DNA of 64,000 bases from Deferrisomatales bacterium (GTDB taxonomy: Bacteria > Desulfobacterota > Deferrisomatia > Deferrisomatales > Deferrisomataceae), in the NCBI GenBank assembly GCA_024277875.1, contig JAJRUI010000001.1, forward strand, positions 1-64,000, read 5' to 3'. The position numbers and the translations under genes are program-made. Below are positions 1 to 54,204 of this stretch, piece after piece. The notes beneath the pieces were generated by a model. It searched no databases and had not been told where the DNA came from. It saw only the letters and a program-made list of their open reading frames with translations. Positions within the stretch are counted from its first letter, which is position 1, and each line of letters starts with the position of its first letter.

Positions 1-30
1 AGCCGCGCCCGGCGCTCCGCCGGGCCCCCC
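1..30 (-). repeat. Edge-truncated copy of the ~230-bp intergenic element
   Basis: On the minus strand this stretch carries the element's diagnostic hairpin CCCGGCGGAGCGCCGGG followed by CGCGGCT, the same start as the copy at about 52-240. It continues beyond the left edge of the window, so only the first part is visible. It sits in tandem, same orientation, about 205 bp after the next copy. Confidence 0.55.
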
Positions 31-51
31 GGCGCCCGTGGCAAGGGGTGC

Positions 52-240
52 CCGGGGCAAGGGGGACCCGCCTCCGGCCGGGCGCGATGGGGGCACCTGT
101 TCCGCTGCGCAGCCGTAGGGCGCGGGGCGCGGGCGCCTGGAGCCCGTGGCGGGCAGCGCCGGTGGTCGCATGGGGCTGTAGCGGGCTGCGCAGCGGGCCG
201 GGGAGCCGCGCCCGGCGCTCCGCCGGGCCCCGTACGTTGG
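52..240 (-). repeat. Degenerate copy of the ~230-bp intergenic element
   Basis: Read on the minus strand this copy starts with AACGTACGGGG, then the hairpin CCCGGCGGAGCGCCGGG, a variable middle, and ends with a GCGCCCGGCCGGAGGCGGG block like the GCACCCGGCCGGAACCGGG block of better copies at 16221, 23103 and 53974. The hairpin has C-G where other copies have a T-G wobble. It fills most of the 291-bp space before thiI. No gene is evident in 1-291. Confidence 0.6.
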
Positions 241-291
241 GTTCCGGGGCGCCGGGGATCGGAACCATCCAACTTCCTGGGGAGACGAGCG

Positions 292-1449
292 GTGACCGAC
301 CGGATCGTGATCCACTACAGCGAGATCGGAATCAAGGGCCGGAACCGCCGGTACTTCGAGCGCGCCCTGGTCCGCAACGTGCGCGCAGCCCTGGGCCCGG
401 CCGCCGAGGTGCGGCACCAGCCTGGCCGGCTCGTGGTCAAGCCCGGGCCCGGCGCCGACCCGGCCGAGGTCCGGGAGGCCCTGGGCCGCGTCCCGGGCAT
501 CGCGTACTTCAGCCCGGCCGTGGTCGCGCCGGCCGACCCCGACGCGATCGCCGAGCGGGCCGTGGCCGTGCTGTCCGACCTCGCGTTCGATACCTTCGGC
601 GTGGCCGCCCGCCGGTCGGACAAGGGGTTTCCGTTCACCTCGCCCGAACTCAACGCCCACGTGGGCGCGGCCGTGGTCGCCCGCCTGGGCAAAAAGGTCG
701 ACCTCACCGAACCGGACGTGCTGCTGCGGATCGAGGTCACCCGCCAGGGCGCGTACCTGTACGCCGAGAAGGTGCCGGGCCCGGGCGGGCTGCCCGTGGG
801 CACCAGCGGCACGGTGGCCGCGTCCCTGTCCGGGGGCATCGACAGCCCGGTGGCCGCGTACCTGATGATGAAGCGCGGGTGCCGGGTGGTGTTCGTGCAC
901 GTGCGCAACGAGACCCAGTTCGCCGGCGGGGTGGACGACAAGATCCGCGACCTGGTGGCCGAACTCACCCGGTACCAGGTCCGGTCCCGGCTGTGGGTGC
1001 TACCGTTCGGCGACCTCCAGCGCCGGATCATCGCGTTCGTGCCGGCCGAGTTGCGGATGATCGTGTACCGCCGGTTCATGATGCGCCTGCTCGACCGGGT
1101 GGCCGACCGGGAGGACGCCCAGGCCCTGGTGACTGGCGACTCGGTGGGCCAGGTGGCGTCCCAGACCCTGGAGAACCTGGCGTGCATCCAGGCCGCGGCA
1201 CGCAGGCCCGTGCTCTCGCCCCTGGTGGGCCTGAACAAGGAGGAGATCACCGATCTCGCCCGCCGGATCGGCACCTTCCCCCACTCCATCGCGCCGTACC
1301 CCGACTGCTGTTCGTTCATGATCGCGCCCCACCCCGAGACCCGCGCCGACCCGGCCGTGGTGGCCCGGTCCGAGGCCGCCGTGGCCGCCGCCGACCAGTA
1401 CCTGGCCGCGTGCCTGGAAGCGGCCCAGGTGGAGACGTTCGAGGCGTAG
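292..1449 (+). CDS. thiI: tRNA 4-thiouridine synthetase ThiI (short form)
   Basis: This protein of 385 residues is the ATP-dependent sulfurtransferase that adenylates U8 of tRNA and installs 4-thiouridine; in some bacteria it also feeds thiamin thiazole synthesis. A THUMP RNA-binding domain occupies roughly residues 55-165. The PP-loop SGGIDSPVAA lies near residue 180. The conserved DCCSFMIAPHP block is close to the C-terminus. The C-terminal rhodanese domain of the E. coli enzyme (482 aa) is absent, as in Bacillus-type ThiI, so a separate sulfur donor is needed; the tandem rhodanese at 4639 is one nearby candidate, by inference only. GTG start at 292 follows a GGGGAG ribosome binding site with good spacing. 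Family assignment is secure. Confidence 0.95.
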   Translation: MTDRIVIHYSEIGIKGRNRRYFERALVRNVRAALGPAAEVRHQPGRLVVKPGPGADPAEVREALGRVPGIAYFSPAVVAPADPDAIAERAVAVLSDLAFDTFGVAARRSDKGFPFTSPELNAHVGAAVVARLGKKVDLTEPDVLLRIEVTRQGAYLYAEKVPGPGGLPVGTSGTVAASLSGGIDSPVAAYLMMKRGCRVVFVHVRNETQFAGGVDDKIRDLVAELTRYQVRSRLWVLPFGDLQRRIIAFVPAELRMIVYRRFMMRLLDRVADREDAQALVTGDSVGQVASQTLENLACIQAAARRPVLSPLVGLNKEEITDLARRIGTFPHSIAPYPDCCSFMIAPHPETRADPAVVARSEAAVAAADQYLAACLEAAQVETFEA

Positions 1450-1532
1450 CCCGCCGTCCGGTCACACCAGGAGCACGGAGCGGACGGGGGCGGGGGCCCA
1501 GGTCGAACGCGTAGGTTTCGGCTGACCACATA

Positions 1533-1557
1533 GCAGGTTGCGGAAAAAGCAACCTGC
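1533..1557. other. Perfect 9-bp stem-loop after thiI
   Basis: GCAGGTTGC and GCAACCTGC flank the loop GGAAAAA. It lies between thiI and the next hairpin and lacks a T tract. It may help stop thiI transcription or protect its mRNA end. Nothing else is evident in 1450-1532. Confidence 0.45.
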
Positions 1558-1563
1558 GGCGCG

Positions 1564-1582
1564 CCCCACGGATGGGGTTTTT
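1564..1582 (+). terminator. Rho-independent terminator of thiI
   Basis: CCCCA and TGGGG pair around the loop CGGA and are followed directly by five T. Together with the stem-loop just upstream it should end thiI transcription. Because an ATG at 1572 sits inside this structure, I place the start of the next gene downstream. Confidence 0.6.
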
Positions 1583-1643
1583 CAGCATCCTGATAGGGGA
1601 CACCGCCGAGGAGATCCAGTGTTTATACGAGTTCGTAACTGTC

Positions 1644-2880
1644 ATGGATAATCTCCATGCGGACATGAAGGCAGACATCTCGGCGTCGGTGGACCGCGGT
1701 GAGAGCACCGGCTTGATGGAGCCGTTCCTCGTCGGCCAAGGCTCCCGCCACCGGAGCGGCCTCACCGACCTGGCCGTCGAACTCGCGTCCGCGGCCGCCG
1801 GCCTTCGTGGGAGCTTGCCGCGGGGGGGTGCGCACGGCCCTGGCCGACCTGGCCCGGGCCATGAACTGTTGCTACAGCAAACTGATCGAAGGCCATGACA
1901 CCCACCCGGTGGATATCGAACGGGCGCTCAGGGAGGATTACAGCACCGATCCGGGCAAACGCGATCTCCAACTCGAAGCCCGGGCCCACATTGCCGTGCA
2001 GCGCTGGATCGACGCGGGCGGTCTCTCGGGCCGGGCCGTCACGGTGGGAGGGATCCGCGAGGTCCACCGGCGTTTCTTCGAACTGTTGCCGGAAGGCCTG
2101 CTGTGGGCGGAGGACCCGGACACCGGCGAACGCCTGAAAGTCGTCCCCGGCGAACTCAGGCCCCGCGACGTGAAAATTGGCCAGTACGTCGCGGTCGGCC
2201 CCGGCGCCATACCCCGGTTCCTCGCCCGTTTCGAGCGCGCCTGCAGCCGCCTCGGCAAGACGGACGCGATCCTGGCGGCCGCGGCGGCCCGCCACCGGCT
2301 GTTGTGGATCCACCCGTTCCTCGGCGGCGACGGCCGTGTGGCACGCCTGATGTCTCACGCCATGCTGTTCGAGACGCTCGATACCGGCGGCATCTGGTCC
2401 GTTGCTCGGGGCCTTGCGCGCGCTGTTACGGACTACAAGGGGCATCTGGCGCGCTGCGATCCGCCTCGCCGTAACGATCTCGACGGCCGTGGCGCGTTGA
2501 GCGAAGGGGCGTTGGCCGGCTTCACCCGCTTTTTTCTGGAAGCGTGCATCGACCAGGTGCGTTTCATGGAGGACCGGGTCCAACCCGGCCGTCTGCGTAC
2601 GCGCATCCTGTTGTGGGCGGAAGAGGAGATGCGTTTTGGCCGGCTGCCTCCCAGGGCGGGCAACCTCCTCGAAGCGGTCCTGTACCGCGGTGAGATGCCG
2701 CGGGGCGACGCAGTTGGTGTGCTCGGCGACACGGCGCGGCACGCCCGCCGTGTCGTCGCCTCACTGGTGGACTGCGGCGTACTCACATCGGGAAGCCCGC
2801 GTGCGCCGTTGCGGCTCGCCTTTCCCGCGGCGCTGGCACCGCGCTGGATGCCGGGGCTGTTCCCGGAGAGGGTGGGATAG
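1644..2880 (+). pseudogene. Fic family protein (AMPylase-like), frameshifted at a G7 tract
   Basis: Two overlapping frames together make one Fic protein of about 411 residues if one base is removed. Frame 1 (1644 to about 1822) encodes the N-terminus; frame 2 (from about 1825 to 2880) encodes the Fic core. They join at a run of seven G (1822-1828). Frame 2 has an inhibitory-type motif SKLIEG before the core (class II arrangement) and the active-site loop HPFLGGDGRVAR at 2311-2346. Canonical Fic loops read HxFx(D/E)GNGRxxR; here the metal-binding acidic residue is Gly and Asn is Asp, so the catalytic state is uncertain. The C-terminal part resembles a winged helix. Start at 1644 is tentative, with no clear ribosome binding site. 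Could be a pseudogene, a slippage-regulated gene or an assembly error. Confidence 0.75.
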
Positions 2881-2937
2881 GCGTCGCCTCGGCCTGGGGC
2901 TGCAACTCGCGGGGCAAAGCCGGGAGACGGAGGATCC

Positions 2938-3156
2938 ATGCCCATCGAGATCCGAGCCGGCGGCTGCACCCTCGCCGCCGACCAGGTGGTCGCGTGCACC
3001 CCGGACCTGCTGGGGGACGCGGCGGACAAACTGGGCGCGGTACGGGTGCTCGGGACGGGGGGGGCTCGCACGGCCCGCACGGTCTCGTTCGTCCGCCGCA
3101 AGCCCCGGTCCCGGGGTGGCCGCCGGGTCCGTGTTTCAGTTTCGGACGCCAGCTGA
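2938..3156 (+). CDS. Small hypothetical protein
   Basis: Unrecognised reading frame of 72 residues. Support for translation is a good ribosome binding site (GGAGACGGAGG, four bases before the ATG) in the short space after the Fic gene. The C-terminal third is rich in Arg and Ser. Its 3' end overlaps the 3' end of the minus-strand nucleotidyltransferase gene by about 20 bp. It could be chance, as long frames are common at this G+C. Confidence 0.35.
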   Translation: MPIEIRAGGCTLAADQVVACTPDLLGDAADKLGAVRVLGTGGARTARTVSFVRRKPRSRGGRRVRVSVSDAS

Positions 3157-3516
3157 GCGGCGGAGGAACGCGGACTCGTCCTCTGCCTCCCGGGCCACCA
3201 GGGAGACGTACGCAGCGGTCCGGCCGGGATCCCGGCACAGCAGCCGGCGGCCCGAGACCGCTTCCATGGCCAGCAGGGGCGAACGGCACGGCAGCACGGT
3301 CAGGTCGATCTCCTCGACACCCAGCGCCCGTTGCAGCGCGGCCCTGAGGTCCGCCTGCTTCTCCAGTGTGGGGGGAGCGTCGAACAGGACCCCGAGGTCC
3401 AGGTCGCTGCCGGGGCCGAGCACGCCCCGGACCGCCGACCCGAACACCCAAGCGGCCACCACCCCGGGGAACCGCTCCAGCGTCGCCGTCGCCGTTTGCC
3501 AGTCAACCGCGGACAT
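3136..3516 (-). CDS. MntA-like minimal nucleotidyltransferase (antitoxin)
   Basis: A protein of 126 residues with the minimal nucleotidyltransferase signature: GSAVRGVLGPGSDLDLGVLF supplies the GS helix and the DxD metal pair, and a third acidic residue lies in VEEIDLTVL. Enzymes of this type (MntA) AMPylate a Tyr of the partner HEPN RNase and so neutralise it. The start ATG at 3516 lies inside the end of the upstream HepT-like gene (14-bp overlap), the usual coupled layout. An upstream extension in the same frame has composition unlike the family and was not used. Together they form a toxin-antitoxin type module. Confidence 0.85.
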   Translation of the reverse strand: MSAVDWQTATATLERFPGVVAAWVFGSAVRGVLGPGSDLDLGVLFDAPPTLEKQADLRAALQRALGVEEIDLTVLPCRSPLLAMEAVSGRRLLCRDPGRTAAYVSLVAREAEDESAFLRRSAGVRN

Positions 3517-3913
3517 GGGACAGGATCTCCGCGCGGAACCGGTCGAAATCGTCCAGGCGCCGGGTGACGATGTCCGCCAGGATCTCCACGTCGATGTGTT
3601 CGTACCGGTATACGACCAGGTTGCGGAACTGGACCATCCGCTCGTACCCGTGGCCGGAGGCCACGACTCCGAGGTCCGCGCAGCGGCGAACTGCATCGGC
3701 GCTGGTGGGAGCGGGGCTGTGTCCTTTGAGTGAGAGGATCCGTTGGCACACGTCGACCACCACCTCGACCAGGATCTGGAGGTCCCGCTCCACTGCCCGG
3801 TGGGTCCTCCAGTCCTTTGCCAGTTGGGCGGCGGTGACAGGTCCGAGTGAACGCAGTTCCCCCAGGACCTCGTCCATCGTCTGGAGTTTGCCGATGATGG
3901 GGCCGTTGATCAT
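3503..3913 (-). CDS. HepT-like HEPN protein (toxin) with Tyr in place of the motif His
   Basis: A helical DUF86/HepT-family protein of 136 residues, first gene of the pair with the nucleotidyltransferase at 3136-3516. HEPN RNases use an Rx4-6H motif, normally RNxxVHxY. Here the motif reads RNLVVYRY, with Tyr at the His position, while the second HepT-like protein in this window (63030-63446) has RNRLVHLY. The Tyr that is normally AMPylated is retained. The protein may be catalytically dead or belong to a Tyr-bearing subgroup. The 114-bp spacer to YjbQ (3914-4027) shows no further feature. Confidence 0.8.
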   Translation of the reverse strand: MINGPIIGKLQTMDEVLGELRSLGPVTAAQLAKDWRTHRAVERDLQILVEVVVDVCQRILSLKGHSPAPTSADAVRRCADLGVVASGHGYERMVQFRNLVVYRYEHIDVEILADIVTRRLDDFDRFRAEILSHVRG

Positions 3914-4027
3914 GTGGGAGCCTCCGTAGACCCTTTCGGCAAAAAGTGTACGCCGCTGTCTACGGGGGGTAAAGCTCCGGGCAGGAAGGTGGCTTTGGCG
4001 CGGTGTCTCCGGCCCTTCCCCTGCGTT

Positions 4028-4447
4028 TTACTCCCCGATGATCTTCACCAGCACGCGCTTGCGGCGGCGGCCGTCGAACTCGCCGTAGAAGATCGCCTCC
4101 CACGGCCCGAAGTCGAGCCGCCCGCCTGTCACGGCCACCACCACCTCCCGGCCCATGACCTGGCGTTTGAGGTGGGCGTCGCCGTTGTCCTCGCCGGTGC
4201 GGTTGTGCTCGTAGCGGTTCAGGGGTTCGTGGGGCGCCAGGTCCTCGAGCCACCGCTCGTAGTCCTGGTGGAGCCCGCCCTCGTTGTCGTTGATGAACAC
4301 GGACGCGGTGATGTGCATCGCGTTCACGAGGCAGAGGCCCTCCCGGATGCCGCTCTCCCGCAGGCATGCCTTCACCTGGGGCGTGATGTGGATGAACGCC
4401 CTCCGGGTTGGCACGTCGAACCACAACTCTTTCCGGTAGCTTTTCAT
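4028..4447 (-). CDS. YjbQ family protein (UPF0047)
   Basis: A protein of 139 residues, full length for the YjbQ/UPF0047 family, which has weak thiamin phosphate synthase activity and an uncertain main role. Conserved blocks are [18 protein letters not shown] and, later, [20 protein letters not shown], whose His and acidic residues line the metal-binding pocket of the trimer. The ATG at 4447 follows GGAGGG at good spacing; an in-frame extension to 4510 lacks a ribosome site and similarity. Divergent from the rhodanese gene at 4639. Confidence 0.9.
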
Positions 4448-4638
4448 GGCGTCTCCCTCCGGTGTCCCCGATCCGCTGGATTGTACGCACGGGGGCCGCA
4501 GACCGTCCACGGGTTTTCCTGGGCTCTTCCGGACAGGGCCCGTGTTGTCACTTCCGGAGCCTGCCGAGCATCCAACGGTGGCAAACGGGGTTTTCAGTGG
4601 TATGGTCCCAAAAACCCCGAGAAACGGAGGGAGAAGCC

Positions 4639-5709
4639 ATGGGTGGAGGGCGTGTGTTCCGGTATGCGGTGATCGCGGCCGTCCTGGCCGCGGGTGTGGG
4701 GTGGTCGGTGGCGTCCGTGCCGGCGGGGGGCGGGTATCCCGGGCGCGACATCCTGGCCACGGCCGGGTGGCTCGAGGTCCACCGCGACGACCCCGGCGTG
4801 GTGGTGGTGGACGTCCGCACGGACAAGCACTTCGACGGCCGGGTTATCCCGGGCGCGGTCCGGCTGCCGTGGAAGCGGTTCCAGCACAGCGACCCGGTCC
4901 GCGGGGTGGGCGGCCTGTTCGTCGGGGTGGAACGGGCCCAGGAGATCCTCGGCCGCCACGGGATCTCCCGGGAGAGCACGGTGGTCCTGTACGACTCGGT
5001 GGATCGCGATGCCGGGGCCACGTCGTCGTACGTGTTCTGGGTCCTCGACCTGCTGGGACACCCCAGGGTCAAGGTGTTGCCCCGGGGCATCGACGCGTGG
5101 GTCGCGGCCGGGGGCGCGGTGGCCTCCGAACCGGCCGTGCCGGAACCGGTGACCTACCAGGCCCCGTCCGGCGAGGTGCGCCTGCGGCGGTGGGCCACCG
5201 GCGCGTTCATCCGCGACCGGCTGGGAGACCCGGTCTACCAGATCGTGGACGTCCGGAGCCGCGCCGAGTACCTGGGCGACAAGCTCAACAAGGCCCTGTC
5301 CGGCGGCCCCCTCAAGGCGGGCCACATCCCGACCGCGTACAACGTGGAGTACAAACGCAACTGGGCGGACAAGGAGACCAAGGCGCTGAAACCGATGCAG
5401 GATCTGCTGGAGCTGTACCGGGGGCTCGATCCCAACCGGCCGGTGATCCTGTACTGCCACTCGGGCCGGCGGGGCTCGTTCAGCTACTTCGTGCTGCGGC
5501 TGATGGGATTCCAGGACGTGATGCTGTACGACGCGAGCTGGCACGAGTGGGGCAACCCGGACCTGTTTTTCCCCGTCGCACAGAGCGAGCGCGAACTGGC
5601 CGGCGACCTGCCCGGCCCGGTGCGCAAGGCGTCCCTGTCCGCGCCCGCCCGGGGGGCCGGCGGCCGGAAGGCCGCGGCCAAGGGCGGCTACGTGTCGTGC
5701 GGCGGGTAG
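4639..5709 (+). CDS. Exported tandem-rhodanese sulfurtransferase
   Basis: A protein of 356 residues starting with a hydrophobic signal segment (about residues 6-28). Two rhodanese domains follow: an inactive N-terminal one with the [17 protein letters not shown] block and a C-terminal one whose active-site loop CHSGRRGS has the catalytic Cys near residue 273. It should move sulfane sulfur (thiosulfate or 3-mercaptopyruvate type substrates) in the periplasm. The genes for two YeeE/YedE half-transporters follow 11 bp downstream, so the likely role is to handle sulfur linked to import. ATG chosen from the strong GGAGGGAGAAGCC ribosome site. Confidence 0.9.
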
Positions 5710-5720
5710 GGGGAAGGCCG

Positions 5721-6248
5721 ATGGCTACGAGACGCTCACCCTACTGGTCGTGGTCGGCCTCGGCGTTCGCCCTGGCCGGGATCGTGGTGTTCATCTTCGC
5801 GACGTTCGGCCCGCCCGCGTCGTCCAGCGGGTTCGTGACCACCCTGAAGGGGCTGCTGGCGCCGGTGGCGCCCGAGTACGTCGCGTCCAAGGCCCACTAC
5901 CGGGCCATGCCCGGCCCGGGCTCCTGGCTCATGACCTTCGTACTCGGGATGGCCATCGGCGGGTTCCTCGCCGGCCTGACTAGCCGGTCCCCGGTGCGGG
6001 ACGTGCCCGAGATCTGGGAGCGGCGGTTCGGGCCCGGCCGGGCCAAGCGCTACCTGGCAACCTTTGTCGGCGGGTTCCTCCTGCTGTTCGGGGCGCGGCT
6101 CGCCGGGGGGTGCACCCTGGGGCTGTTCATCTCGGGTTCGACCCAGCTCGCGGTGAGCGGCCTGTACTTCGGGGCCGTGATCTTTACCGTGGCCATGCTC
6201 ACCGCCCGGATCGTGTACGGGCGGGCGCTGGAGGAGGGGGACCGATGA
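5721..6248 (+). CDS. YeeE/YedE family transporter, first half
   Basis: A membrane protein of 175 residues with about four hydrophobic segments and the motif GARLAGGCTLGLFISG, whose Cys corresponds to the relay cysteines of thiosulfate importer TsuA (YeeE). Full TsuA has two such halves in one chain; here the second half is the next gene. Related YedE proteins are linked to selenium metabolism. The family is known for thiosulfate or sulfur-compound uptake; the actual substrate here is inferred. Stop overlaps the next start (ATGA). Confidence 0.88.
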   Translation: MATRRSPYWSWSASAFALAGIVVFIFATFGPPASSSGFVTTLKGLLAPVAPEYVASKAHYRAMPGPGSWLMTFVLGMAIGGFLAGLTSRSPVRDVPEIWERRFGPGRAKRYLATFVGGFLLLFGARLAGGCTLGLFISGSTQLAVSGLYFGAVIFTVAMLTARIVYGRALEEGDR

Positions 6249-6775
6249 CCGAGATCTGGCTGGGACTGTTCTCCGGGATCGCGTTCGGGATCGTGGTGCA
6301 GCGGGCCGGGGCCACCAACGGCGACGAGATGGCCCGGGCCCACCTGATGCTCGACGGCCGGATCCCTCGGTTCATGGTGTCGGCGGTGGCCCTGGCCGCC
6401 CTGGGGCTCGTGGGCCTCCAGGCCGTGGGGGTGGGCCGGACCATGGTGCTGCCCACGAGCCTGGTGGCCACCGGGGTGGGCGGCGTGATCTTCGGCGTGG
6501 GCTGGGGCCTGAGCGGCTACTGCCCGGGCACCTGCTGGGCCGCGGCCGGGGAGGGGCGGCTGGACGCGGTGTTCGCCCTGCTGGGAGGGCTGGCCGGGGC
6601 GGCCGCGTTCGCCCAGTGGCACGAGGTGCTCGTCCCGGCGCTGTACCTGCCCACCAACCTGGGACCGATCACCCTGGCCCGGTGGACCGGCAGCCCGGTG
6701 GCGGCCGCGGCAGCCCTGGCCGCGGTATTCGGCGCGGCCGGGTGGGTGATGGGACGGGCGTGGGGCAGCGACTGA
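6245..6775 (+). CDS. YeeE/YedE family transporter, second half
   Basis: A membrane protein of 176 residues that complements the preceding gene. It begins with a short helix and the motif RAGATNGDEMARAH, and carries GYCPGTCWAAAGEGRLDA, the conserved Cys-containing signature of the second YeeE half. The ATG at 6245 overlaps the upstream stop, so translation is coupled and the two halves are made in equal amounts. The pair probably forms a single channel that accepts sulfur from the exported rhodanese encoded upstream. Confidence 0.88.
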   Translation: MTEIWLGLFSGIAFGIVVQRAGATNGDEMARAHLMLDGRIPRFMVSAVALAALGLVGLQAVGVGRTMVLPTSLVATGVGGVIFGVGWGLSGYCPGTCWAAAGEGRLDAVFALLGGLAGAAAFAQWHEVLVPALYLPTNLGPITLARWTGSPVAAAAALAAVFGAAGWVMGRAWGSD

Positions 6776-7365
6776 CGTCCCTGGTCGCGGCGGGCCTGGC
6801 CGCGCTCGCGCTCGGTTGCGACGCCGGGCCGGGCCGCGTGCCCCTGGCCGTGCCCCCCGGGTACCAGAGCCGCCTGGAGTTCGTCCACGACGGCGTGCTC
6901 CTCGGGTTCGGCCAGTTCGTGGGGTACTACTTCAGGGCGGACGACCCCCGGGACCCGGTGCGGGTAAAGTTGGTGTGCTTCAACGAGCAGGGGTTCTACG
7001 CCTCGAACGCCCCGGTGAACGCCCTCCTCTACGAGGGGGAGGCGGTGCGCACCCGGCTGCCCGGCGCCGGCAAGGTCCCCCCCGGCCCCGACCGGATCCG
7101 GCCCGTGTTCTTCCCGGACGCCCCGGCCCCGTGGCTGGCCACCCGCCCGGAGCCGCGGGACGCGTTCGTCCACTTCCACTCGTGCTATGCCCGCGCCGGC
7201 CCGGTGCGCCTCGGTTTCTGGATCCGCCACCGGGCCGTGCGGGCGTTCACCTACGACATGGGGGGCCGGGTGGGCCCGGGCAGCCCCCTGTACCACCGGG
7301 TCGCGCCCGGGACGGACCTGGGGTTCGCCCGAATCGTGGAGTTCGACGCCGGCCCGGGGCGGTGA
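6760..7365 (+). CDS. Lipoprotein of unknown function
   Basis: Starting from the GTG at 6760 the protein has 201 residues with a lipoprotein signal ending in LALGC (Cys20). The rest is soluble and contains no domain I recognise; it is rich in aromatic residues, with a FHSCYARAGPVRLGFWIRH stretch. The start lies within the end of the YeeE gene (16-bp overlap), so it belongs to the same operon as rhodanese and YeeE/YedE and may be a periplasmic partner. An alternative GTG is at 6742. It ends 4 bp before the convergent protease gene. Confidence 0.7.
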   Translation: MGQRLTSLVAAGLAALALGCDAGPGRVPLAVPPGYQSRLEFVHDGVLLGFGQFVGYYFRADDPRDPVRVKLVCFNEQGFYASNAPVNALLYEGEAVRTRLPGAGKVPPGPDRIRPVFFPDAPAPWLATRPEPRDAFVHFHSCYARAGPVRLGFWIRHRAVRAFTYDMGGRVGPGSPLYHRVAPGTDLGFARIVEFDAGPGR

Positions 7366-7373
7366 CGGTCACC

Positions 7374-16192: not shown

Positions 16193-16495
16193 CGGCCCCC
16201 GGGCTGCGGGTTATAGAGATCAACGAAAGTAGTGCCGGATTCTCCCTTTTCTCTTTGGGCAGTTCGGGGTGGGGCCCGGTGGAGCGCCGGGTGCGGCCCC
16301 TTGGCTCGCCGCGCACCAGGACGCCCGGTGCGCCTCCAGGGTTCGGCACACCGCCTTCGCAAGGCCTGCGGGCGTGTCAGCCAGCTGACCTCGCGCGGCG
16401 ATCGGGTGCCGCTCCCCGCACCCGGCCGGAACCGGGCGCCGCCCCGGGGCCGTGTGGCGATCCGCTACTCCCACCCGCCCTGGACGGGGAGGACC
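16193..16495. other. Spacer filled by the intergenic element
   Basis: This 303-bp spacer between the MBL hydrolase gene and the TRAP operon holds the element at 16221-16455 and the ribosome binding site GGGGAGG of the next gene. No promoter is obvious, so the TRAP promoter may lie within the element. Confidence 0.5.
16221..16455 (+). repeat. ~230-bp structured intergenic element, copy A
   Basis: Starts with CAACGAAAGT, then a TGCCGG block, the hairpin CCCGGTGGAGCGCCGGG, a CTCGCCGCGCAC block, a variable middle, CGCGGCGATCGGGTGCCGC and a terminal hairpin CCCGG-CCGGAA-CCGGG. Copies B (53974, same strand) and C (23103, minus strand) align end to end. It is in front of the TatT gene. Confidence 0.8.
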
Positions 16496-23102: not shown

Positions 23103-23335
23103 GGGGTGGGCGCCCGGTTCTGGCCGGGTGCCAGTAGCGACACCCGATCGCCGCGCCTTGCGATGCCGCTGTTTGCCGGTTGGTCCGGGCCTCGACAGCG
23201 GAACCCTTGGCGTTCGGAGACGATCCGGACGTTCGAACGGCGCGGCGCGTCAAGGGGCCGCGCCCGGCGCTCCACCAGTCCCCCACCCCGCACTACCCAA
23301 GGGGAAGGGTAAGGATCTGGCAATACTTTCGTTGG
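23103..23335 (-). repeat. ~230-bp structured intergenic element, copy C
   Basis: On the minus strand it begins CCAACGAAAGTATTGCC, carries CTGGTGGAGCGCCGGG, a GCCGCGCC block, GGCGCGGCGATCGGGTG and ends CACCCGGCCAGAACCGGGCG. The ends and both hairpins match copies A and B; the middle differs. It is the only strong copy on the minus strand, upstream of yyaL. Confidence 0.8.
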
Positions 23336-23372
23336 GTTTAGCAAAAGAAATTCTTGCTACCGGGCGGAGTCT

Positions 23373-44963: not shown

Positions 44964-45013
44964 AAAACGGTGTTTCGGCATTGTTCCCTCGAACCTGCAA
45001 AAAGGAGGTCCAC

Positions 45014-46096: not shown

Positions 46097-46120
46097 TCCC
46101 AGTCCCGGGACGAGAGAACA

Positions 46121-46161: not shown

Positions 46162-46171
46162 CGTCCCCGGA

Positions 46172-46966
46172 TCAGCCGTCCGGCCGGGGCAGCCACTCCC
46201 CGATCCACCGGGCGATCCACCGGCCCGCCCGGCGGGCGTGCCCGGGCCGGGACAGCAGGTGGTCGGCCCCGGCCAGGGGCACGAACGCCTTGGGCTGGCG
46301 GGCCCGGGCGAACAGCTGCTCCCCCTCGGCAACCGGCGCGATCCGGTCCCCGGGCGCGTGGAGCACCAGGAGCGGCCGGCCGAGCTCGTCCAGGACCCGG
46401 CCGAGGTCGGCGCGTCGCAAAGACCCCAGGAGCCCGGGCGACAGCCGAAAGCGGCGGCCCAGCACCGTGACCGGCACCGGCCGGCCCGCGGCCTCGGCCT
46501 CGGCCATCTGGGGGAACGACCCGGCCACGTGCACGGCGTCGGCCGGGGCCGCGATGGTGACCACCCCGGCCACCTCTGCCGTGGCCCGGGCCGCCAGGAG
46601 CGCGGCCGCGCCCCCCAGGCTGTGGCCCACCAGGAACACGGGGGCCTCCCCCCGGCGGCCCCGCAGGAACGCCAGGGCCGCCCCGAGGTCGGCCGCCTGG
46701 GTGCCGAGGTCGGCCTCCTCGAACGCGCCCCCGCTCTCCCCGAGCCCGGTGAGGTCCACGCGCAGCGCAGCCACCCCCCGGCGGGCCAGCTCGCCGGCCA
46801 GGTGGTACAGGCCGGTCAGGTCCTTGGTGCAGGTGAAGCACGGCGCCACCACGGCCCACGCCCGGGGCGCGCCCCTGGCCGGCCGGTCGAGCCGGCCGGC
46901 CAGGGAGATCCCCCGGTCGTTCGGGAACCGGACCGCCTCCCGGACCACCCCGGGAGCCGGGGTCAC
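46172..46966 (-). CDS. Alpha/beta hydrolase
   Basis: A protein of 264 residues with nucleophile elbow GHSLGGAAAL, Asp in LHAPGDRIAP and His in GADHLLSRPG, a complete triad. It belongs to the serine aminopeptidase-like hydrolases that are often fused N-terminally to an OsmC domain; here the two are separate genes with the OsmC gene first and a GTGA overlap. Substrate unknown; a role with thiol or peroxide stress is inferred from the partner. Confidence 0.88.
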   Translation of the reverse strand: MTPAPGVVREAVRFPNDRGISLAGRLDRPARGAPRAWAVVAPCFTCTKDLTGLYHLAGELARRGVAALRVDLTGLGESGGAFEEADLGTQAADLGAALAFLRGRRGEAPVFLVGHSLGGAAALLAARATAEVAGVVTIAAPADAVHVAGSFPQMAEAEAAGRPVPVTVLGRRFRLSPGLLGSLRRADLGRVLDELGRPLLVLHAPGDRIAPVAEGEQLFARARQPKAFVPLAGADHLLSRPGHARRAGRWIARWIGEWLPRPDG

Positions 46967-47352
46967 ACCGCGACCAGTTCGAACGCCGGCGGCTCCACGA
47001 TGTGCCGTTTCACCGCGCACTGGTCCATCGCCCGCAGGATCGCCTTGCGGTACTTGTCGGGGAACCCGGCGGGCAGGTGGGCCTCGATCCGGATCCTGGC
47101 GATCCCGTGGCCGTCCTCGGCCCGCTCGGTGTCCAGGGTGACCCGCAGGTCCCGGGTGTCGATGCCGCGCTCCTGGCAGAACCGCAGGGCGAAGAACCCG
47201 GCGCAGGTGCCGATGGACGCGAGGAACAGATCGAACGGCGCCGGGGCGGTGCCGCCCCCGCCGGCCCGCTCGGGCTGGTCGGTCCGGATCGTGTGGCCCC
47301 GGTACTCGGCGTTCACGGCCACGCCGCCGGGAAAGGTGATCTCCATGGCCAT
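46963..47352 (-). CDS. OsmC-family peroxiredoxin-like protein
   Basis: A protein of 129 residues with the paired reactive cysteines of OsmC/YhfA proteins: Cys50 in ASIGTCAGFFALRFCQERG and Cys59 in the same helix. It should reduce organic hydroperoxides or bind thiol-reactive compounds. Coupled to the downstream hydrolase gene. ATG at 47352 or 47346; AGGAG lies just upstream. Confidence 0.9.
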   Translation of the reverse strand: MAMEITFPGGVAVNAEYRGHTIRTDQPERAGGGGTAPAPFDLFLASIGTCAGFFALRFCQERGIDTRDLRVTLDTERAEDGHGIARIRIEAHLPAGFPDKYRKAILRAMDQCAVKRHIVEPPAFELVAV

Positions 47353-47368
47353 GGGGGCTCCTCTTTTC

Positions 47369-47424
47369 GGGTTCCAGGTTCCGGGTCACCGATCACTGAT
47401 CACGGCAGTTCCCACCGATCACTG
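47369..47424. repeat. Heptad array 5
   Basis: Words GGGTTCC, AGGTTCC, GGGTCAC, CGATCAC, TGATCAC, GGCAGTT in period 7, in the spacer between the HD-GYP gene and OsmC. TGATCAC and GGTTCC words recur in arrays 3, 4, 7 and 8. Confidence 0.8.
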
Positions 47425-47468
47425 CCCCCAAAGTACCGCCGGGGACGGGGGTCGTCCAGGTGGTCGGG

Positions 47469-48812
47469 TCAGTGGACGACGGCGGTCAGGGGGGTGTTGG
47501 TCACGGCGTGGGTCGGCCGGCTGAGAACCGCTTCCGGGTCAAACCCCGCGGCCGACGGGTCCTGCACCCGGTCCACGGAGCGGGGGTACGCGGTGTCGTC
47601 CCCGGGCTCGGTGGCCGACAGGTCCACGTCCACGGGCGACGGCAGCCGGCGGCCGTCCGGGGTGGTCACCAGCCGGACCCACGGCCGCAGGAGGTGGTTG
47701 CGGTTCTGGCGGACCACCACCCCGAGTTCCCCGGTGTCCAGGACGACCACGGTGCCGATCGGGTGCACCCCCATGCACTGGATGAACCGCTGGACGTACA
47801 GGGGGTGGAACAGGGCGCCCGCCCACTCGAACAGCCTGCGCAGGGCCTGGGCCGGCGCAAGGGCGGCCTGGTACGGCCGGCGGGTCGTCATGGCGTCGTA
47901 CACGTCGGCCACGGCCCCCACCAGCCCGAACTTGCCGATGGACGCCCGCTCCAGCCCCCGCGGGTACCCGGAACCGTCCCACCGTTCGTGGTGGTTCAGG
48001 GCCACGGCCGCGCTGGCGTCGTGCACGTCGTGGGCCTCGAGCAGCTGGCGGGCGCCCCGGGCCGCGTGGGACCGCATCACCTCGTACTCGTCGGGGCTCA
48101 GGGGCCCCTCCCGCTTCACCAGCTCCGGCGGGATCTCCAGCTTGCCCACGTCGTGCAGCAGCGCGCCCACCCCGAGCCGCTTGAGTTCCTCGTCCAGGAT
48201 GCCCAGGGACGCGCCCAGGTTCAGGGACAGCACGGCCACGTTGATGCTGTGCTCGTAGGTGTACTCGTCGTAGTTCTTGATGCGCGACAGGCTGATCAGG
48301 GCGTCCCGGTTCCGGAAGATCGACCCCACCATGTCCTCGACCACCGCGTGGGCCCGCGCCCCGTCCACGGGTTCGCCCCGGGCCACCCCGTCGAACAGGG
48401 CCCGCACCACCCGTTTGGCCTCGTCGTACAGGGCCCTGGCCCGTTCGAGTTCCACGTCGAACGGGTCGGTGGCGGCCGGCTCGTCCCCCCCTGGCGCAGC
48501 CGTTTCAGCGGGTTCCCCGGCCTCGGGTTCCGGGCCCCGGGCGGGGCGCTCGAGGGATGCCTCGGCCTCCTCCCGGAGCCGGCGGTCCAGGTCCTGGTCG
48601 TACTCGTGGGCCGCGGCGGCGTGGACGCTGTCCAGGCCCCTGGACGTGTCGATGTACACGTGGGAGATGCCGTGGTCGATGATCTTCTGCACGTCCCGGA
48701 CCGACCGGACCTTGCGCCGGCTGGTCAGGAACGGGTGGTTGAACCACGGCGTGTTGAAATCCGTCACGTACATGCCCGGGACGAGCTTGTCGGACGGGAT
48801 CTTCTTGATCAT
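47469..48812 (-). CDS. HD-GYP domain c-di-GMP phosphodiesterase with N-terminal DUF3391
   Basis: A protein of 447 residues. Residues ~1-130 match DUF3391 (KIPSDKLVPGMYVTDFNTPW, then VQKIIDHGISHVYIDTSRGL). The HD-GYP domain (about 160-370) keeps the metal ligands: HDVGKLEIP near 219 and HHERWDGSGYPRGL. It should degrade c-di-GMP to GMP. Cytosolic. Monocistronic between repeat array 5 and the carboxyltransferase gene. Confidence 0.93.
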   Translation of the reverse strand: MIKKIPSDKLVPGMYVTDFNTPWFNHPFLTSRRKVRSVRDVQKIIDHGISHVYIDTSRGLDSVHAAAAHEYDQDLDRRLREEAEASLERPARGPEPEAGEPAETAAPGGDEPAATDPFDVELERARALYDEAKRVVRALFDGVARGEPVDGARAHAVVEDMVGSIFRNRDALISLSRIKNYDEYTYEHSINVAVLSLNLGASLGILDEELKRLGVGALLHDVGKLEIPPELVKREGPLSPDEYEVMRSHAARGARQLLEAHDVHDASAAVALNHHERWDGSGYPRGLERASIGKFGLVGAVADVYDAMTTRRPYQAALAPAQALRRLFEWAGALFHPLYVQRFIQCMGVHPIGTVVVLDTGELGVVVRQNRNHLLRPWVRLVTTPDGRRLPSPVDVDLSATEPGDDTAYPRSVDRVQDPSAAGFDPEAVLSRPTHAVTNTPLTAVVH

Positions 48813-48910
48813 CGGACCCCCCGGGGCCGGCCGGAGGTGAGGGAGCGTCCCGGCCCCGTCGGAGCCGGATCGGCCGGAGCGGCCTGGAACTTTACCGGAG
48901 CGGCGGACGC

Positions 48911-48945
48911 GCGACGGCCCGGCGGAACGTCCGCCGGGCCGTCGC
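48911..48945. terminator. 16-bp perfect hairpin downstream of the carboxyltransferase gene
   Basis: GCGACGGCCCGGCGGA and its exact complement with a 3-nt loop, 27 bp after the stop of the carboxyltransferase gene and before the HD-GYP gene start region. No T tract on either side. It is likely a transcription stop or an mRNA 3'-end stabiliser. Confidence 0.6.
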
Positions 48946-48971
48946 AGGCAGCGCGCTTCGTTCCAGGCCGG

Positions 48972-50705
48972 TCAGCCCTTGATCAGCCGGGGCAGGATCA
49001 TCTGGTGCTGGGCGCAGATCGACTTGGGGTTCTGGTAGGCCGCTCCGGCGAACGCCTTCAGGTACTGGCGGATCGCCGGGAAGTCCACCACCTCGTCCAC
49101 GTACCCGTGCTGGGCGCAGTACAGGGGCCGGGACCGGTCGTAGTACTTCTTGACCAGCGCGTTCATCTTCTCGATCGTGTCGTCCAGGGCCTTGCCCGCG
49201 TCCTGGTCTTTGACCAGCCGGCGCGCGTAAGACGCGGCCGCCGCGGTCTCCCCGTGCATCACGTACACCTCGGTGGTGGGGGTGCCCAGGGTGAACGCGT
49301 TGTGGTTGTTGGCCGTGGGGCCGCCCATCACGTAGTGGGCCGCGGCCGTGGCCTTGCGGAGCACCACCAGCATCTGGGGCACGTCGGTCTGTTCGATCGA
49401 GTAGATCAGGGACTGCCCGAGGCCCAGCAGTTCGGCCTTCTCCGCAATGTCGCCCACGTCGATGCCCGTGGTGTCCTGGAACCACACGATCGGCACCCGG
49501 TCCCGGCCGCACAGGGTCACGAACTCGTTCATCTTGATCAGGCCCTGGCGGTACAGCTTGCCGCCGATGCCCGGGTAGTCGGCGTACTCGGGGTAGCCCG
49601 GCGGCAGGAACCCCTGCTGGTTGCCGATCACCCCGCACAGGAACCCGTCGATCTTCACCAGGCCGCAGTAGATCTCCGGCCCGTACCCGGGGCGGAACTC
49701 CATGTGTTCGCTGCCGTCCACCAGCCGGGCCAGCACGTCCATGAACGAGTACGTGCGCTTCTGGTTGTACGGGACGATCTGGCTGATCTCCTCGGGCGCG
49801 TACTTGGGCTCCTTGGGCTCGGCCACCCGGAAGAACTTGGGCGCGTAGGCCGGCATCTCGGCCATATACTCCTTGATCCCGGTGAGCACGGCCTCCTCGG
49901 TGTCGTACACGTACCGGAAAAACCCGGTGGCGTCGTGGTGGATCTCCACCCGGCCCGGGGCCACCGCCTTGAACTTGCGGGTGGCCTCGATCAGGCTCAG
50001 GCAGCCCTCCTCGTCGAAGTAGCCCTTGGGCTGCATGCCGCTCACGATGCCGCCGCCGCCCACGGCCATGTTCGCGTCCTTGTGGGCGAACATCACGGTG
50101 GGGCTGATCGCCTGGTACCCGCCGCCGGCCGGGTTGGTGCCGTAGATCGCGGCCAGGATCGGGATCCCCATCTTCTGGAGTTCTGCGTGGCGGAAGAACG
50201 TGGCGCCGCCGCCCCGCCGGTCCGGGTACACCTGCTCCTGGTTGGGCAGGTCCACGCCGCTGCAGTTCACCAGCCACACCAGGGGCACGTTGAGCCGCTT
50301 GGCCAGGTCGGTGACCCGCAGGATGTTCTCGGACTGGCCGGCGATCCACGCACCGGCCATCACCTTGTTGTTGAACCCGATGATCACGGCCCACTTGCCC
50401 GAGATCCGGCCGATGCCGTCCATCACGCCCGTGGTGCCGAACGCGTTCTCCTTGGGGTCGTACAGGGTGTGCAGGGGGCACCAGGTACCCGGGTCCACCA
50501 GGTACTGGATCCGCTCCCACACGGTGAGCTGGCCGCGCTTGTGCACGCGCTCGTCGGGGATGCCCTCGTTGCGGATCCGCTCCTGCTCGGCCTCGAGCGC
50601 GTCCAGGACCTTGCGGATCTCCTCCAGGCTCTCCTTGGCCGCCTGGGCCTGGCGATCGGTCAGGGGTTGGCCGAAGTCGGCCATCTTCTCGAAGTAGGGC
50701 CTCAT
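48972..50705 (-). CDS. Acyl-CoA carboxyltransferase, glutaconyl-CoA decarboxylase alpha subunit-like (GcdA)
   Basis: A protein of 577 residues. LVDPGTWCPLHTLYDPKENA at the N-terminal half, YGTNPAGGGYQAISPTVMF and DTTGIDVGDIAEKAELLG (in the C-terminal half) mark the two crotonase-like carboxyltransferase halves; length and the GcdA-type inserts match glutaconyl-CoA decarboxylase alpha more than propionyl-CoA carboxylase beta. It transfers CO2 between an acyl-CoA and biotin. Biotin carrier and membrane subunits are not adjacent. Start ATG at 50705 follows GGGAGG. Confidence 0.88.
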   Translation of the reverse strand: MRPYFEKMADFGQPLTDRQAQAAKESLEEIRKVLDALEAEQERIRNEGIPDERVHKRGQLTVWERIQYLVDPGTWCPLHTLYDPKENAFGTTGVMDGIGRISGKWAVIIGFNNKVMAGAWIAGQSENILRVTDLAKRLNVPLVWLVNCSGVDLPNQEQVYPDRRGGGATFFRHAELQKMGIPILAAIYGTNPAGGGYQAISPTVMFAHKDANMAVGGGGIVSGMQPKGYFDEEGCLSLIEATRKFKAVAPGRVEIHHDATGFFRYVYDTEEAVLTGIKEYMAEMPAYAPKFFRVAEPKEPKYAPEEISQIVPYNQKRTYSFMDVLARLVDGSEHMEFRPGYGPEIYCGLVKIDGFLCGVIGNQQGFLPPGYPEYADYPGIGGKLYRQGLIKMNEFVTLCGRDRVPIVWFQDTTGIDVGDIAEKAELLGLGQSLIYSIEQTDVPQMLVVLRKATAAAHYVMGGPTANNHNAFTLGTPTTEVYVMHGETAAAASYARRLVKDQDAGKALDDTIEKMNALVKKYYDRSRPLYCAQHGYVDEVVDFPAIRQYLKAFAGAAYQNPKSICAQHQMILPRLIKG

Positions 50706-50847
50706 CCCAGAATCCTCCCTTTTCTAGATGAACGGACGCGGTCAGAGTATCGGCGAACCTGCCTGCGGGATGCAAGAACCGGCCCAGCCCCTGCCGGGCC
50801 GGGCGGGGCGATCGGCCGGGGGCCGGGGGCGGTCCTGCGGTGAAATG

Positions 50848-51660
50848 TCAACGCTCGGAGGCGAAAACTGCTCCGGCCCGGCCTTGCCCGGCCAGCCCGT
50901 GGCGGCGGTGCCGGTTCTCCGGGTCCAGCAGGTATCCGTGGCGCACCCGTCCCAGGCTCGACAGCATGCTCGCCTTGATCCCCGGGTGTTCGGCTTCCAG
51001 CCGGCCGAGCAGCGCCTTGACCTGCTTGCGCTTCTGCTGGGTGCCGCACACCGGGCACCCGCAGCACACCACCGGGAACCCGCGGGCCGCCGCGAACGCG
51101 CGGATGTCGGTCTCGAACACCCGGCACAGGGGCCGGATCACCACGTTCTCGCCGTCCTCGGCCTGGAGCACCGGCGGGATGCTCTTGATCTCCCCGGTGA
51201 AGAACTGGCTGAGCAGCAGGGTCTCGATCAGGTCGTCGGCGTGGTGGCCGAGGGCGATCTTGTCGCACCCCTCCCGCCGGGCCACCCCGTACAGCACCCC
51301 CCGCCGGAGCCGGGCGCAGAACGAGCAGTAGCTCGACGCCGGGTCCCGCCTGGCCTCCACGATCTCGTAGATCCGGGACGGCTCCGTGAAGTGCGCGTAC
51401 CCCCTGGCCCGGCAGTAGGCCTCGATCGGGCCGGTGTCGAACCCGGGAAAGCCCGGCTGCACCGTCACCGCGACCACCTCGAACCGCACCGGCGCCCGGC
51501 GGCGCAGGGCGTGGAGGCAGTGGAGCAGGGTCCACGAGTCCTTGCCCCCGGACAGGGCCACCAGCACCCGGTCCCCGTCCTCGATCATGCCGTAGCGCAC
51601 CACGGCCTGGCCGGCCCTGCGCAGGATCCGGCGTTCCAGGTTGGTGCTGCCGGCGCTCAT
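50848..51660 (-). CDS. TtcA-like tRNA 2-thiolation/ATP pyrophosphatase protein
   Basis: A protein of 270 residues with PP-loop ALSGGKDSWTLL and the TtcA-type cysteines SSYCSFCARLRRG and CCGCPVCGTQQKRKQ, which in TtcA hold an iron-sulfur cluster for 2-thiocytidine formation at tRNA position 32. The Cys-rich CCGCPVC insertion supports the TtcA/TtuA superfamily; exact tRNA target unproved. ATG overlaps the stop of the dehydratase-like gene upstream. Confidence 0.88.
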   Translation of the reverse strand: MSAGSTNLERRILRRAGQAVVRYGMIEDGDRVLVALSGGKDSWTLLHCLHALRRRAPVRFEVVAVTVQPGFPGFDTGPIEAYCRARGYAHFTEPSRIYEIVEARRDPASSYCSFCARLRRGVLYGVARREGCDKIALGHHADDLIETLLLSQFFTGEIKSIPPVLQAEDGENVVIRPLCRVFETDIRAFAAARGFPVVCCGCPVCGTQQKRKQVKALLGRLEAEHPGIKASMLSSLGRVRHGYLLDPENRHRRHGLAGQGRAGAVFASER

Positions 51661-52652
51661 CCCACCCCCTGGAGCATCTCGACGAAGCTCTCGAGCCGGG
51701 TGCGGGTGCGGGCGTCCACCGCCATCGGCCGGTCCCCCTCCAGGGTGAGCACTGGCACCCCGACGGTCTTCCGGAGGATCATGTCCTCCATCTGCCGGAA
51801 GCAGAACGCCTGCACGTAGTGCACGATCCCGTGGATCCGGCGCCGGGCGATCTCCCGCCGGATGTCCTCGACCCGGCCGAACACGTCGTACGGGTAGGTG
51901 TACCGGCGGTAGGCCTCGTCCAGGGGCAGGTCCGGGTACGGCAGGCAGAACTGGCGCTGGGTCTCGTTGAACACTACCCGGGCGCCCAGGGACTCCAGGA
52001 ACCCGTACAACCCCTCCACGATCGGCGGCACCCCCACGTACCCCAGGCGCACCGGCCCGGCCAGCGCCGGCCGGGTCCGTGCCTCGTCCAGGAACGCGTC
52101 CAGGCGGGCCGCGTACGCGTCCGGGTCCCCCTCGAAGTCGCTGGCCGACACCAGCCACAGGTGGTTCTCGGCGCCAGTGACCCGGTCTTCCTCCCAGGTG
52201 AGCCGGTCCACCTCCAGAGCCCGGGCCCGCACCGCGTCGAGCCGCGCCTTCTGCGCTTCTGCCTCGGCCCGGGTCGTTCCCAGGCGCTCGCACAGCCGGT
52301 CGATCTCGGCCGACAGGGCGGCGCGGTCGCGGTCGTACGGGTACGCGAACGGGATCGTGGCAAGCCCCTAGTACTGCCAGATCTCCACCAGGGCCTGGGT
52401 GTTGGAGCAGTCCCCCGACATCACCCCGACCACGGCCTCCACCCCGGCCCGGTGGGCCGCAGAGTAGATCCCCTTGATCCAGCCGCAGGTGCTGGCCGGG
52501 AACCCCGCGGTCTCCGCCTGCTCCACCAGGGCCCGCCGGTCCGGGGCGGTGATGAACGCGTTGTTCAGGTCCACCGGCACCCGCCCGGCCGCGAAGACCG
52601 CCTCCACCGGGATCGTGGTGGTGAGGCCGACCCGGCCCGCCGCGTCACTCAT
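51657..52652 (-). pseudogene. 2-Hydroxyacyl-CoA dehydratase/benzoyl-CoA reductase D-subunit-like protein, interrupted by an in-frame TAG
   Basis: The frame of 331 codons resembles HgdB/BcrC-type subunits. Conserved Cys lie in PASTCGWIKGIYSA, MSGDCSNTQ and VQAFCFRQMEDMILRK, the ligand set for the iron-sulfur cluster. A TAG at 52368-52370 interrupts the frame after WQY, and similarity resumes immediately with GLATIPFAYPYDRDR in the same frame, so nothing else is missing. In relatives a Lys, Arg, Gln or Glu is likely at this place. It may be a point mutation, sequencing error or readthrough codon. Upstream is a small membrane protein gene, downstream ttcA (ATGA overlap). Confidence 0.8.
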
Positions 52653-52965
52653 CGCGGATGAACAGCCAGTAGATCAGGAACGCGCCCACCACCACCGCGC
52701 CCCCGCTCAGCAGGAGGATGTTCTTGTTCGGGCCCGACTGGGGGCCGGCCACGGTGGACCGGACCACGAAGCTCAGGGCCAGGGCGCCGGCGAGAACCGC
52801 GAACGTCACCCGCCACTTGAGCACGAGGGACACCACCAGCAATGCGCCCAGGCCCGCCATGCCGTACGGGTGGGTGAACAGGGCGATCAGCTTGTCGTTG
52901 GTCACGTTGGCGAACAGGGCGTTCCAGTCCACCGACGCCAACCACTCCCGGACGGTGTCGAACAT
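52645..52965 (-). CDS. Small membrane protein
   Basis: A protein of 106 residues with three hydrophobic segments (about 33-50, 52-70 and 83-102) and a polar N-terminal part. No family recognised; similar small proteins occur beside HgdB/BcrC-like genes. It starts the three-gene minus-strand operon (this gene, dehydratase-like gene, ttcA) and overlaps the second gene by 8 bp. ATG at 52965 follows GGAGG. Confidence 0.75.
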   Translation of the reverse strand: MFDTVREWLASVDWNALFANVTNDKLIALFTHPYGMAGLGALLVVSLVLKWRVTFAVLAGALALSFVVRSTVAGPQSGPNKNILLLSGGAVVVGAFLIYWLFIRDE

Positions 52966-53131
52966 GGGCGTCCTCCGGTCGGGGCCACGGGCGTGCGCGG
53001 GCCGAGTCTAGCAGAGGCGGCCGGGCCGCACCAACCGCCGCGGCTTGACGCGGGGCCGCCGGATCGGCGACAAAGGAAGAACCGCCCCGGCGCGTCCGGC
53101 CCGGGGCCACTCCCCGTTCCCGGAGGCGCCC

Positions 53132-53875
53132 GTGGGCTCGTACCTGGTACTGTTCGGCGCCGGCCTGGTGGCCGGCACCCTCAACGTGATCGCCGGCGGC
53201 GGCTCGTTCCTGACCCTGCCGATCCTGATCTTCCTGGGCTTGCCGCCCACCGTGGCCAACGGCACCAACCGGGTCGGCATCTTCCTGCAGAACGTGGCCG
53301 CGGTGTGGGGGTTCAACCGCCACCGGGTGCTCGACTGGCGGTACGTGGTGTGGGCCGCCGTGCCCGCCACCTTCGGCGCGGCCCTGGGCACCTGGGCTGC
53401 CGTGCGTATCGGCGAGGACGCGTTTCGCAACGTGCTCGCGCTGCTCATGATCGGGGTCACCCTGTGGACCCTGTGGGATCCGCTCAAGAAGGGCCGCCGC
53501 CTGCTGGAGGCGGGAGAGCGGCCCCGGGTGGCGCCCCTGGCCGCGGGGTTCTTCCTGGTGGGGATCTACGGCGGGTTCGTCCAGGCCGGGGTGAGGTTCC
53601 TGATCCTGGCCACCACCACCCTGGCCGGCCTGGACCTGGTGCGGGGCAACGCGGTCAAGGTGCTGAGCGTGCTGATCTACACCGCCCTGTCCCTGGCCAT
53701 CTTCGCGTGGCAGGACAAGGTGGTGTGGGACCTGGGCCTGGCCCTGGCCGCGGGCACCGTGGCCGGCAGCCAGCTCGGGGTGCGCCTGACCGTGCTCAAG
53801 GGCCACCGGTGGGTCAAGGCCGTGGTCACCGCCGCCGTCATCGCGTTCGCGGTCAAGCTGTTGGTGATGGGATGA
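53132..53875 (+). CDS. TauE/SafE family sulfite/organosulfur exporter
   Basis: A membrane protein of 247 residues with about eight hydrophobic helices. AGTLNVIAGGGSFLTLPIL and TVANGTNRVGIFLQN (helix 1-2) plus the repeat GIYGGFVQAGVRFLILA mark the family, which exports sulfite, taurine or other anions. The substrate is not apparent. GTG at 53132 follows CGGAGG. An in-frame ATG at 53045 lacks support. Confidence 0.9.
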   Translation: MGSYLVLFGAGLVAGTLNVIAGGGSFLTLPILIFLGLPPTVANGTNRVGIFLQNVAAVWGFNRHRVLDWRYVVWAAVPATFGAALGTWAAVRIGEDAFRNVLALLMIGVTLWTLWDPLKKGRRLLEAGERPRVAPLAAGFFLVGIYGGFVQAGVRFLILATTTLAGLDLVRGNAVKVLSVLIYTALSLAIFAWQDKVVWDLGLALAAGTVAGSQLGVRLTVLKGHRWVKAVVTAAVIAFAVKLLVMG

Positions 53876-53879
53876 AGCC

Positions 53880-53977
53880 GGTTCGAGGTTCGAGGTAACC
53901 GGTGATCGGTGACCGGTAACCCACGACTCAAAACGCAGAACCTGCATCGCCTGACCGCTGACAGCTGACAGCTGAAC
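53880..53977. repeat. Heptad array 6 (14 words)
   Basis: The longest array: 14 words in exact register from GGTTCGA (twice) through GGTGATC, GGTGACC and GGTAACC (twice) to GCTGACA (twice) and GCTGAAC. It ends on the first bases of element copy B. Words change stepwise, so neighbouring words are most alike. Confidence 0.9.
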
Positions 53978-54204
53978 GAAAGTTTTGCCGGTTTCTCTCT
54001 TTTTTGGGGCTGTTCGGGGTGGGGCCCGGTGGAGCGCCGGGTGCGGCCCCTCGGCTCGCCGCGCACCGGGACGTCTGGCGCGCCGCCAGGGCTCGACACA
54101 CCGCCTTCCAGGGCCTACGGCGTTGCTGCCGGGCACCCTCGCGCGGCGATCGGGTGCTGCCATCGCACCCGGCCGGAACCGGGCGCCGCCCTGGGGGCGT
54201 GCGG
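53974..54204 (+). repeat. ~230-bp structured intergenic element, copy B
   Basis: Begins GAACGAAAGTTTTGCCGG; has CCCGGTGGAGCGCCGGG, GGCTCGCCGCGCACC, then GCGCGGCGATCGGGTG and a final CACCCGGCCGGAACCGGG hairpin. Over 45 bp around the first hairpin it is identical to copy A except for one or two bases. Downstream is TTTTGAAGG. Confidence 0.8.

Follow-up and report, generated by a model that had tools for sequence, protein, structure and literature searches.

What are the short repeats that recur between genes in the window, the 64,000 nucleotides of DNA analysed here? The sequence-only reading took them to be a new family of structured elements of about 230 bp, and offered three roles for them: a non-autonomous mobile element, a REP-type repeat or an ncRNA. 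The window is contig C55 of a genome (G000) of 2.98 Mb, assembled to 92% completeness in 150 contigs. Three copies were compared with one another inside it: A (from 16221, + strand), B (from 53974, + strand) and C (from 23103, - strand). The match between A and B covers 236 bp at 85% identity (251 bits), that between A and C 237 bp at 71% (102 bits), and B and C match at 76% over 94 bp and at 88% over a further 48 bp, against a top score of 40 bits among 30 dinucleotide-shuffled windows. This similarity is far above chance and the copies are real and related, as had been proposed; a left-arm sequence model matches all three at E values of 1e-23 to 7e-28. Two other parts of the original description also held. 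The middle third of the repeat varies between copies in the alignment, and all three copies (3/3) are intergenic. Copy A follows a metallo-beta-lactamase gene, B is flanked by a TauE/SafE gene and rpmB (L28), and C has a DUF255/thioredoxin gene on one side and a glycerol-3-phosphate acyltransferase gene on the other; of the seven flanking genes looked at, six received a Pfam name.

The proposed length of about 230 bp proved too short. When copies were aligned together with their flanks, the complete ones measured 253-274 bp and carried imperfect TIRs of about 26 bp at both ends, starting TA-CTAA or TA-TAGA (TATAGAGACC or TACTAAATCC), with long, imperfectly palindromic arms of about 100 bp. Two subfamilies are distinguished by their ends. 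Subfamily AB starts with TATAGAGACCAACGAAAGTTTTGCCGG and, at the right end read in reverse, with TATAGAGACCTTCAAAAGTATTGCCGC; subfamily C starts with TACTAAATCCAACGAAAGTATTGCCAG and has the right end TACTAAGGCCTGCAATTGTATTGCCAGG. The statement that the copies share both ends is true of complete copies elsewhere, which have two TIRs, but not of the window, where A, B and C are each damaged at one end and keep one good end apiece. Copy A (16212..16457, + strand, subfamily AB) has its left TIR, TATAGAGATCAACGAAAGTAGTGCCGG, at 16212..16238 on the + strand, and its right TIR is decayed. Copy B (53973..54227, + strand, subfamily AB) has about 10 nt replaced at the left end and an intact right end, with the right TIR (reverse complement TATAGGGACCTTCAAAAGTATTACCGC) at 54201..54227 on the + strand. 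Copy C (23103..23343, - strand, subfamily C) retains the left TIR, TGCTAAACCCAACGAAAGTATTGCCAG, at 23317..23343 on the - strand and lacks the right one.

A genome search that found only the copies in the window had been named as a possible refutation of the family; the searches found many more. A BLAST-type DNA similarity search located the repeat at 57 places in the window's genome. The left-arm model, which uses sequence only and consists of TIR plus core, gave at least 85 matches there at E<=1e-3 and at least 63 at E<=1e-6; with 150 candidates scored per genome, the counts from this model are lower bounds. The model gave at least 92-114 matches in each of G001-G003, three genomes from a sister genus within the family, whose elements have the same TIRs as the repeats described here, and no match in the other eight genomes of the class that were examined. 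Among 84,980 species, in a collection that may omit records of the window's own genome, just two deposited assemblies contained the exact core 23-mer: JALUTY01, and JAADGT01, which is labelled as a deltaproteobacterial MAG. An Rfam scan of the window returned no match, and the repeats were not met in a limited search of the open-access literature. To that extent it is fair to call the family new, and it is apparently undescribed.

Insertions differ between related genomes, as was seen when the joined flanks of G001 insertions were searched in G002 and G003 and three of the sites were re-aligned. At locus L089, occupied in G001 by an IS, the G003 site is empty and aligns over 300 bp at 99% identity; it carries TA once, the filled site twice. 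At the MITE locus L070 the G003 site is likewise empty: TA occurs once, and the alignment runs over 198 bp with no gap. The G002 site corresponding to the MITE at L068 is also empty, with a junction that reads TG, not TA, in an approximate match. Among the three sites compared, duplication of TA is thus exact for the MITE at L070 and the IS at L089, which answers in the affirmative the earlier suggestion that target-site duplications be sought. TA flanks most MITE copies. Such a TA duplication is what is known to mark transposition of the IS630/Tc1-mariner kind.

The complete genome G001 (4,236,551 bp) contains 42 matches to the TIR pattern, vs 0 for a reversed control, and these include three pairs that are 1.1 kb apart. 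Three near-identical, TIR-bounded IS copies of about 1.1 kb are present in this genome, with the ends TACTAAGACCTTCAAAAGTATTGCC and TACTAATACCTACAAAAGTATTGCC. They encode a 343-aa transposase that scores 279 bits against the NCBIfam IS630 model (cutoff 100) and 1.6e-41 against Pfam DDE_3. Transposase model, size and TA duplication together place the element in the IS630 family of the Tc1/mariner superfamily. Its similarity to the MITEs is confined to the outermost 20-26 bp, where up to 25 nt match at 92%; the interiors are unlike, and the repeats contain no transposase sequence and have only the TIRs in common with the IS. Within the right TIR of copy B, 19/20 bases are those of the IS630 element's TIR.

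In the window's genome, fragments of the IS lie at contig C136; their DNA is 92-93% identical and one end has the same TIR. No intact transposase was found in this assembly, which is 92% complete in 150 contigs, and assembly can lose repeated IS copies; at this level of completeness the assembly may have missed an intact copy. A TIR-pair search of the same genome for an autonomous partner found none, and the single-TIR matches that were inspected are fragments, deleted forms or nested copies. One element end, at C112:40993, was considered as part of a larger element and set aside on inspection, when the reading frames there showed no transposase. The MITE family has probably ceased to be active in the window's genome. 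Since a sister genome has an intact IS and the window's genome fragments only, these genomes offer a clean case in which to study the way MITEs outlive their transposase. The searches add a high-copy MITE family and its likely IS630 partner, met in these searches only in one bacterial family, whose genomes are high in GC.

We are confident that the repeats are MITEs of the IS630/Tc1-mariner type, and they are probably mobilised in trans by a transposase of this kind. They are short and multicopy, with many dispersed copies, no transposase sequence, two TIRs and a TA duplication, and there is an autonomous element with the same TIRs; among the roles first offered, this evidence shows that of the non-autonomous mobile element to be the right one. 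An IS630/Tc1-mariner-type DDE transposase, supplied by the full-length IS with the same TIRs of about 26 bp, would bind the MITE ends, excise the gene-less element and insert it at a TA, duplicating the TA. One half of the element repeats the other in inverted form, so the imperfectly palindromic arms pair with one another and each copy can fold into one long hairpin. REP/BIME-type repeats, which would be spread by a REP-associated tyrosine (Y1) transposase, are likewise numerous, extragenic and palindromic, and a REP-type repeat was among the roles first offered. Against such an origin, to which we give almost no credence, stand the length of 253-274 bp, the two TIRs, the TA duplication and the existence of a DDE partner of the IS630 family that has the same ends. 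REPs, with their RAYT transposases (PMC2817692), are not known to have TIRs or target duplication and depend on another class of enzyme.

The case for RNA was built on the hairpin CCCGGYGGAGCGCCGGG, in which a change between T-G and C-G was read as compensated. The change is one-sided. The variable third base of the hairpin (column 69) has an invariant G as its hairpin partner, two-sided changes occur at 0/7 pairs, and 487/500 shuffles were as good. Column 69 changes instead together with column 237 in the right arm, the two reading T-A in 20 copies and C-G in 11. A structure that pairs arm with arm has two-sided changes at 17 pairs and in 92 cells, whereas shuffles gave 12.4 pairs and 39.9 cells and slid controls no more than 11 pairs and 34 cells, with the proviso that the copies are related and the changes are not independent events. 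These changes join the left and right arms, which are about 165 nt apart, and include the outermost bases of the TIRs. Because they exceed both the shuffles and the slid controls, the pairing that has been kept is between the two inverted arms. Covariation therefore supports paired arms as far as left arm and right arm are concerned, and gives no support to the local hairpin. Coevolution of this kind is expected for inverted repeats that one enzyme recognises, and alone it shows no RNA. The hairpins are the element's inverted arms and are not good evidence for a functional RNA.

These results bear on the explanation that a structured ncRNA or cis-regulatory RNA has multiplied in the genome, with selection on the RNA keeping the stems. 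The two-sided changes in the arms could be cited for it, as could the core, which varies less than the TIRs and the middle do, and folding on one strand that is better than in shuffled sequences (z of -2.85 for copy B and -0.44 for its opposite strand; z of -4.67 for copy L037 on the strand tried). The mismatches between the arms, however, give no clear strand preference and are a weak measure of one: in 35 related, non-independent copies G-U was counted 142 times and A-C 108 times, and several copies fold better on the opposite strand. The hairpin on which the RNA reading relied shows no covariation, the covariation between the arms reaches the TIR ends, as it does in DNA transposons with inverted repeats, Rfam offers no match, and the whole middle is deleted in several copies. 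We therefore regard an RNA origin as very improbable. For annotation, the repeats in these genomes should be marked as mobile elements, not as RNAs.

The MITEs vary in ways that involve their interiors. Seven copies in the window's genome (L194-L200, on contigs C52, C148, C114, C102, C142, C90 and C94) keep the TIRs and have lost the interior, and they lie at different sites. Most of these short forms have the same junction, between two CGGGTGC repeats; the short form may have spread by itself or arisen repeatedly by slippage. Copies L010 and L019 are chimeras of subfamilies AB and C. In L072 (G001:2790960-2791232) the interior has the opposite orientation with respect to its TIRs, as if it had been flipped by recombination between the arms. 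A reversed interior is probably also present in G003, on contigs C27 and C78.

A second family of MITEs has the same palindromic core. In copy B the left arm of this core (GGTGGAGCGCCGGGTGCGGCCCC..GCTCGCCGCGC) occupies 54021..54065 and its right arm, which pairs with the left, 54141..54187, both on the + strand; the left-arm sequence is the part also present in the second family. That family occurs in G001 (for example at L179, L184 and L186), and its members are about 267 bp long, with the TIRs TTAACCCGGCGACAAAATAGGCGCG and the same palindromic core. The core of L184 is identical to that of L070 at 33/34 bp. TIR-like matches to the second family (<=3 mismatches) number 53 in G001 and only 5 in the window's genome, where the family was noted on contigs C105, C136 and C93. 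Its TIRs resemble those of a second IS630-type element of G001 (L132, L133 and L134, at G001:1209386, 3403335 and 4028620), which has a TIR of the form TTATTAACC..GGCG..TAAATAGGCGC and a transposase 39% identical to the first. One copy of this second element is inserted in the right end of a MITE.

That one core occurs in two families whose TIRs differ offers a tangible case of MITEs evolving as modules. It also raises the question of whether the core is kept for a function of the host or the element, such as transcription termination, RNase III processing or insulation, with the TIRs merely spreading it. The presence of the same core, almost unchanged, behind different TIRs is what speaks for such a function, but recombination between neighbouring or nested elements could explain the sharing equally well, and chimeras and tandem junctions do exist. 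A consensus scan around copy B, moreover, gave no promoter-like or terminator-like site. We think a function of this kind unlikely, if less so than an RNA origin. The same doubt attaches to a broader proposal, that the core is a transferable functional module of RNA or DNA structure which at least two different IS630-type systems of this bacterial family captured independently, each between its own TIRs; its conservation would then be due to selection on the core as well as to transposition. This too is unlikely in our judgement.

As IS630-type MITEs, the repeats may operate in a manner comparable to two known bacterial systems, the RUP and Correia/NEMIS elements. Promoters and RNase III cleavage are known from experiment for Correia elements, whereas the repeats described here are known from sequence alone. 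Correia/NEMIS elements, from a different host (Neisseria), are intergenic MITEs with TIRs of about 24 bp, a terminal TA and a long stem-loop (PMC2229807), a likeness to the present repeats that is drawn from described features. Inversion of Correia elements has been reported (PMC10969869) and resembles the flipped interior of L072. RUP, in Streptococcus pneumoniae, is paired with IS630-Spn1 and is likewise a small, intergenic, high-copy repeat with IS630-family-like TIRs and a TA target; the case for RUP was argued from the shared TIR, the TA target and the high copy number (PMC2229807). Compared by description only, RUP is smaller, at 107 bp with 9-bp TIRs, than the present elements of 253-274 bp with TIRs of about 26 bp and palindromic arms of about 100 bp.

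The start of the window had been read as a degenerate fourth copy at 52-240, with another beginning in tandem at 1-30. The region (1..240, - strand) is indeed a degenerate relative, and a 28-bp piece of the core is present twice in it, at 1-28 and at 204-231. It has no recognisable TIR, however, and 52-240 shares just core segments of 44-45 bp with copies of the A/B/C type. These core pieces are common to both MITE families, and the right arm best matches the second family, at 91% over 35 bp. The search turned up a single other close copy, 96% identical, situated at a contig end (C75). The region belongs to a group related to A, B and C and distinct from them. The pieces at 1-28 and 204-231 form an identical direct repeat, and the window starts at a contig end; the repeat probably broke the assembly there.

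Two further repeats were noticed beside the elements. A palindromic repeat, approximately CAGGATGCGGAAAAACCCCATCCGTGGGTTTTTCCGCATCCTG, adjoins the left ends of L002, L009, L031, L034 and L044, which suggests either that the MITEs favour such surroundings for insertion or that this is a further family of repeats. A repeat of about 128 bp that starts with TTATTCATGAGCGTTCGTCGCG occurs dozens of times in G003 (for example L137 and L141) and in G002, and in G001 an IS copy has inserted at the edge of one.
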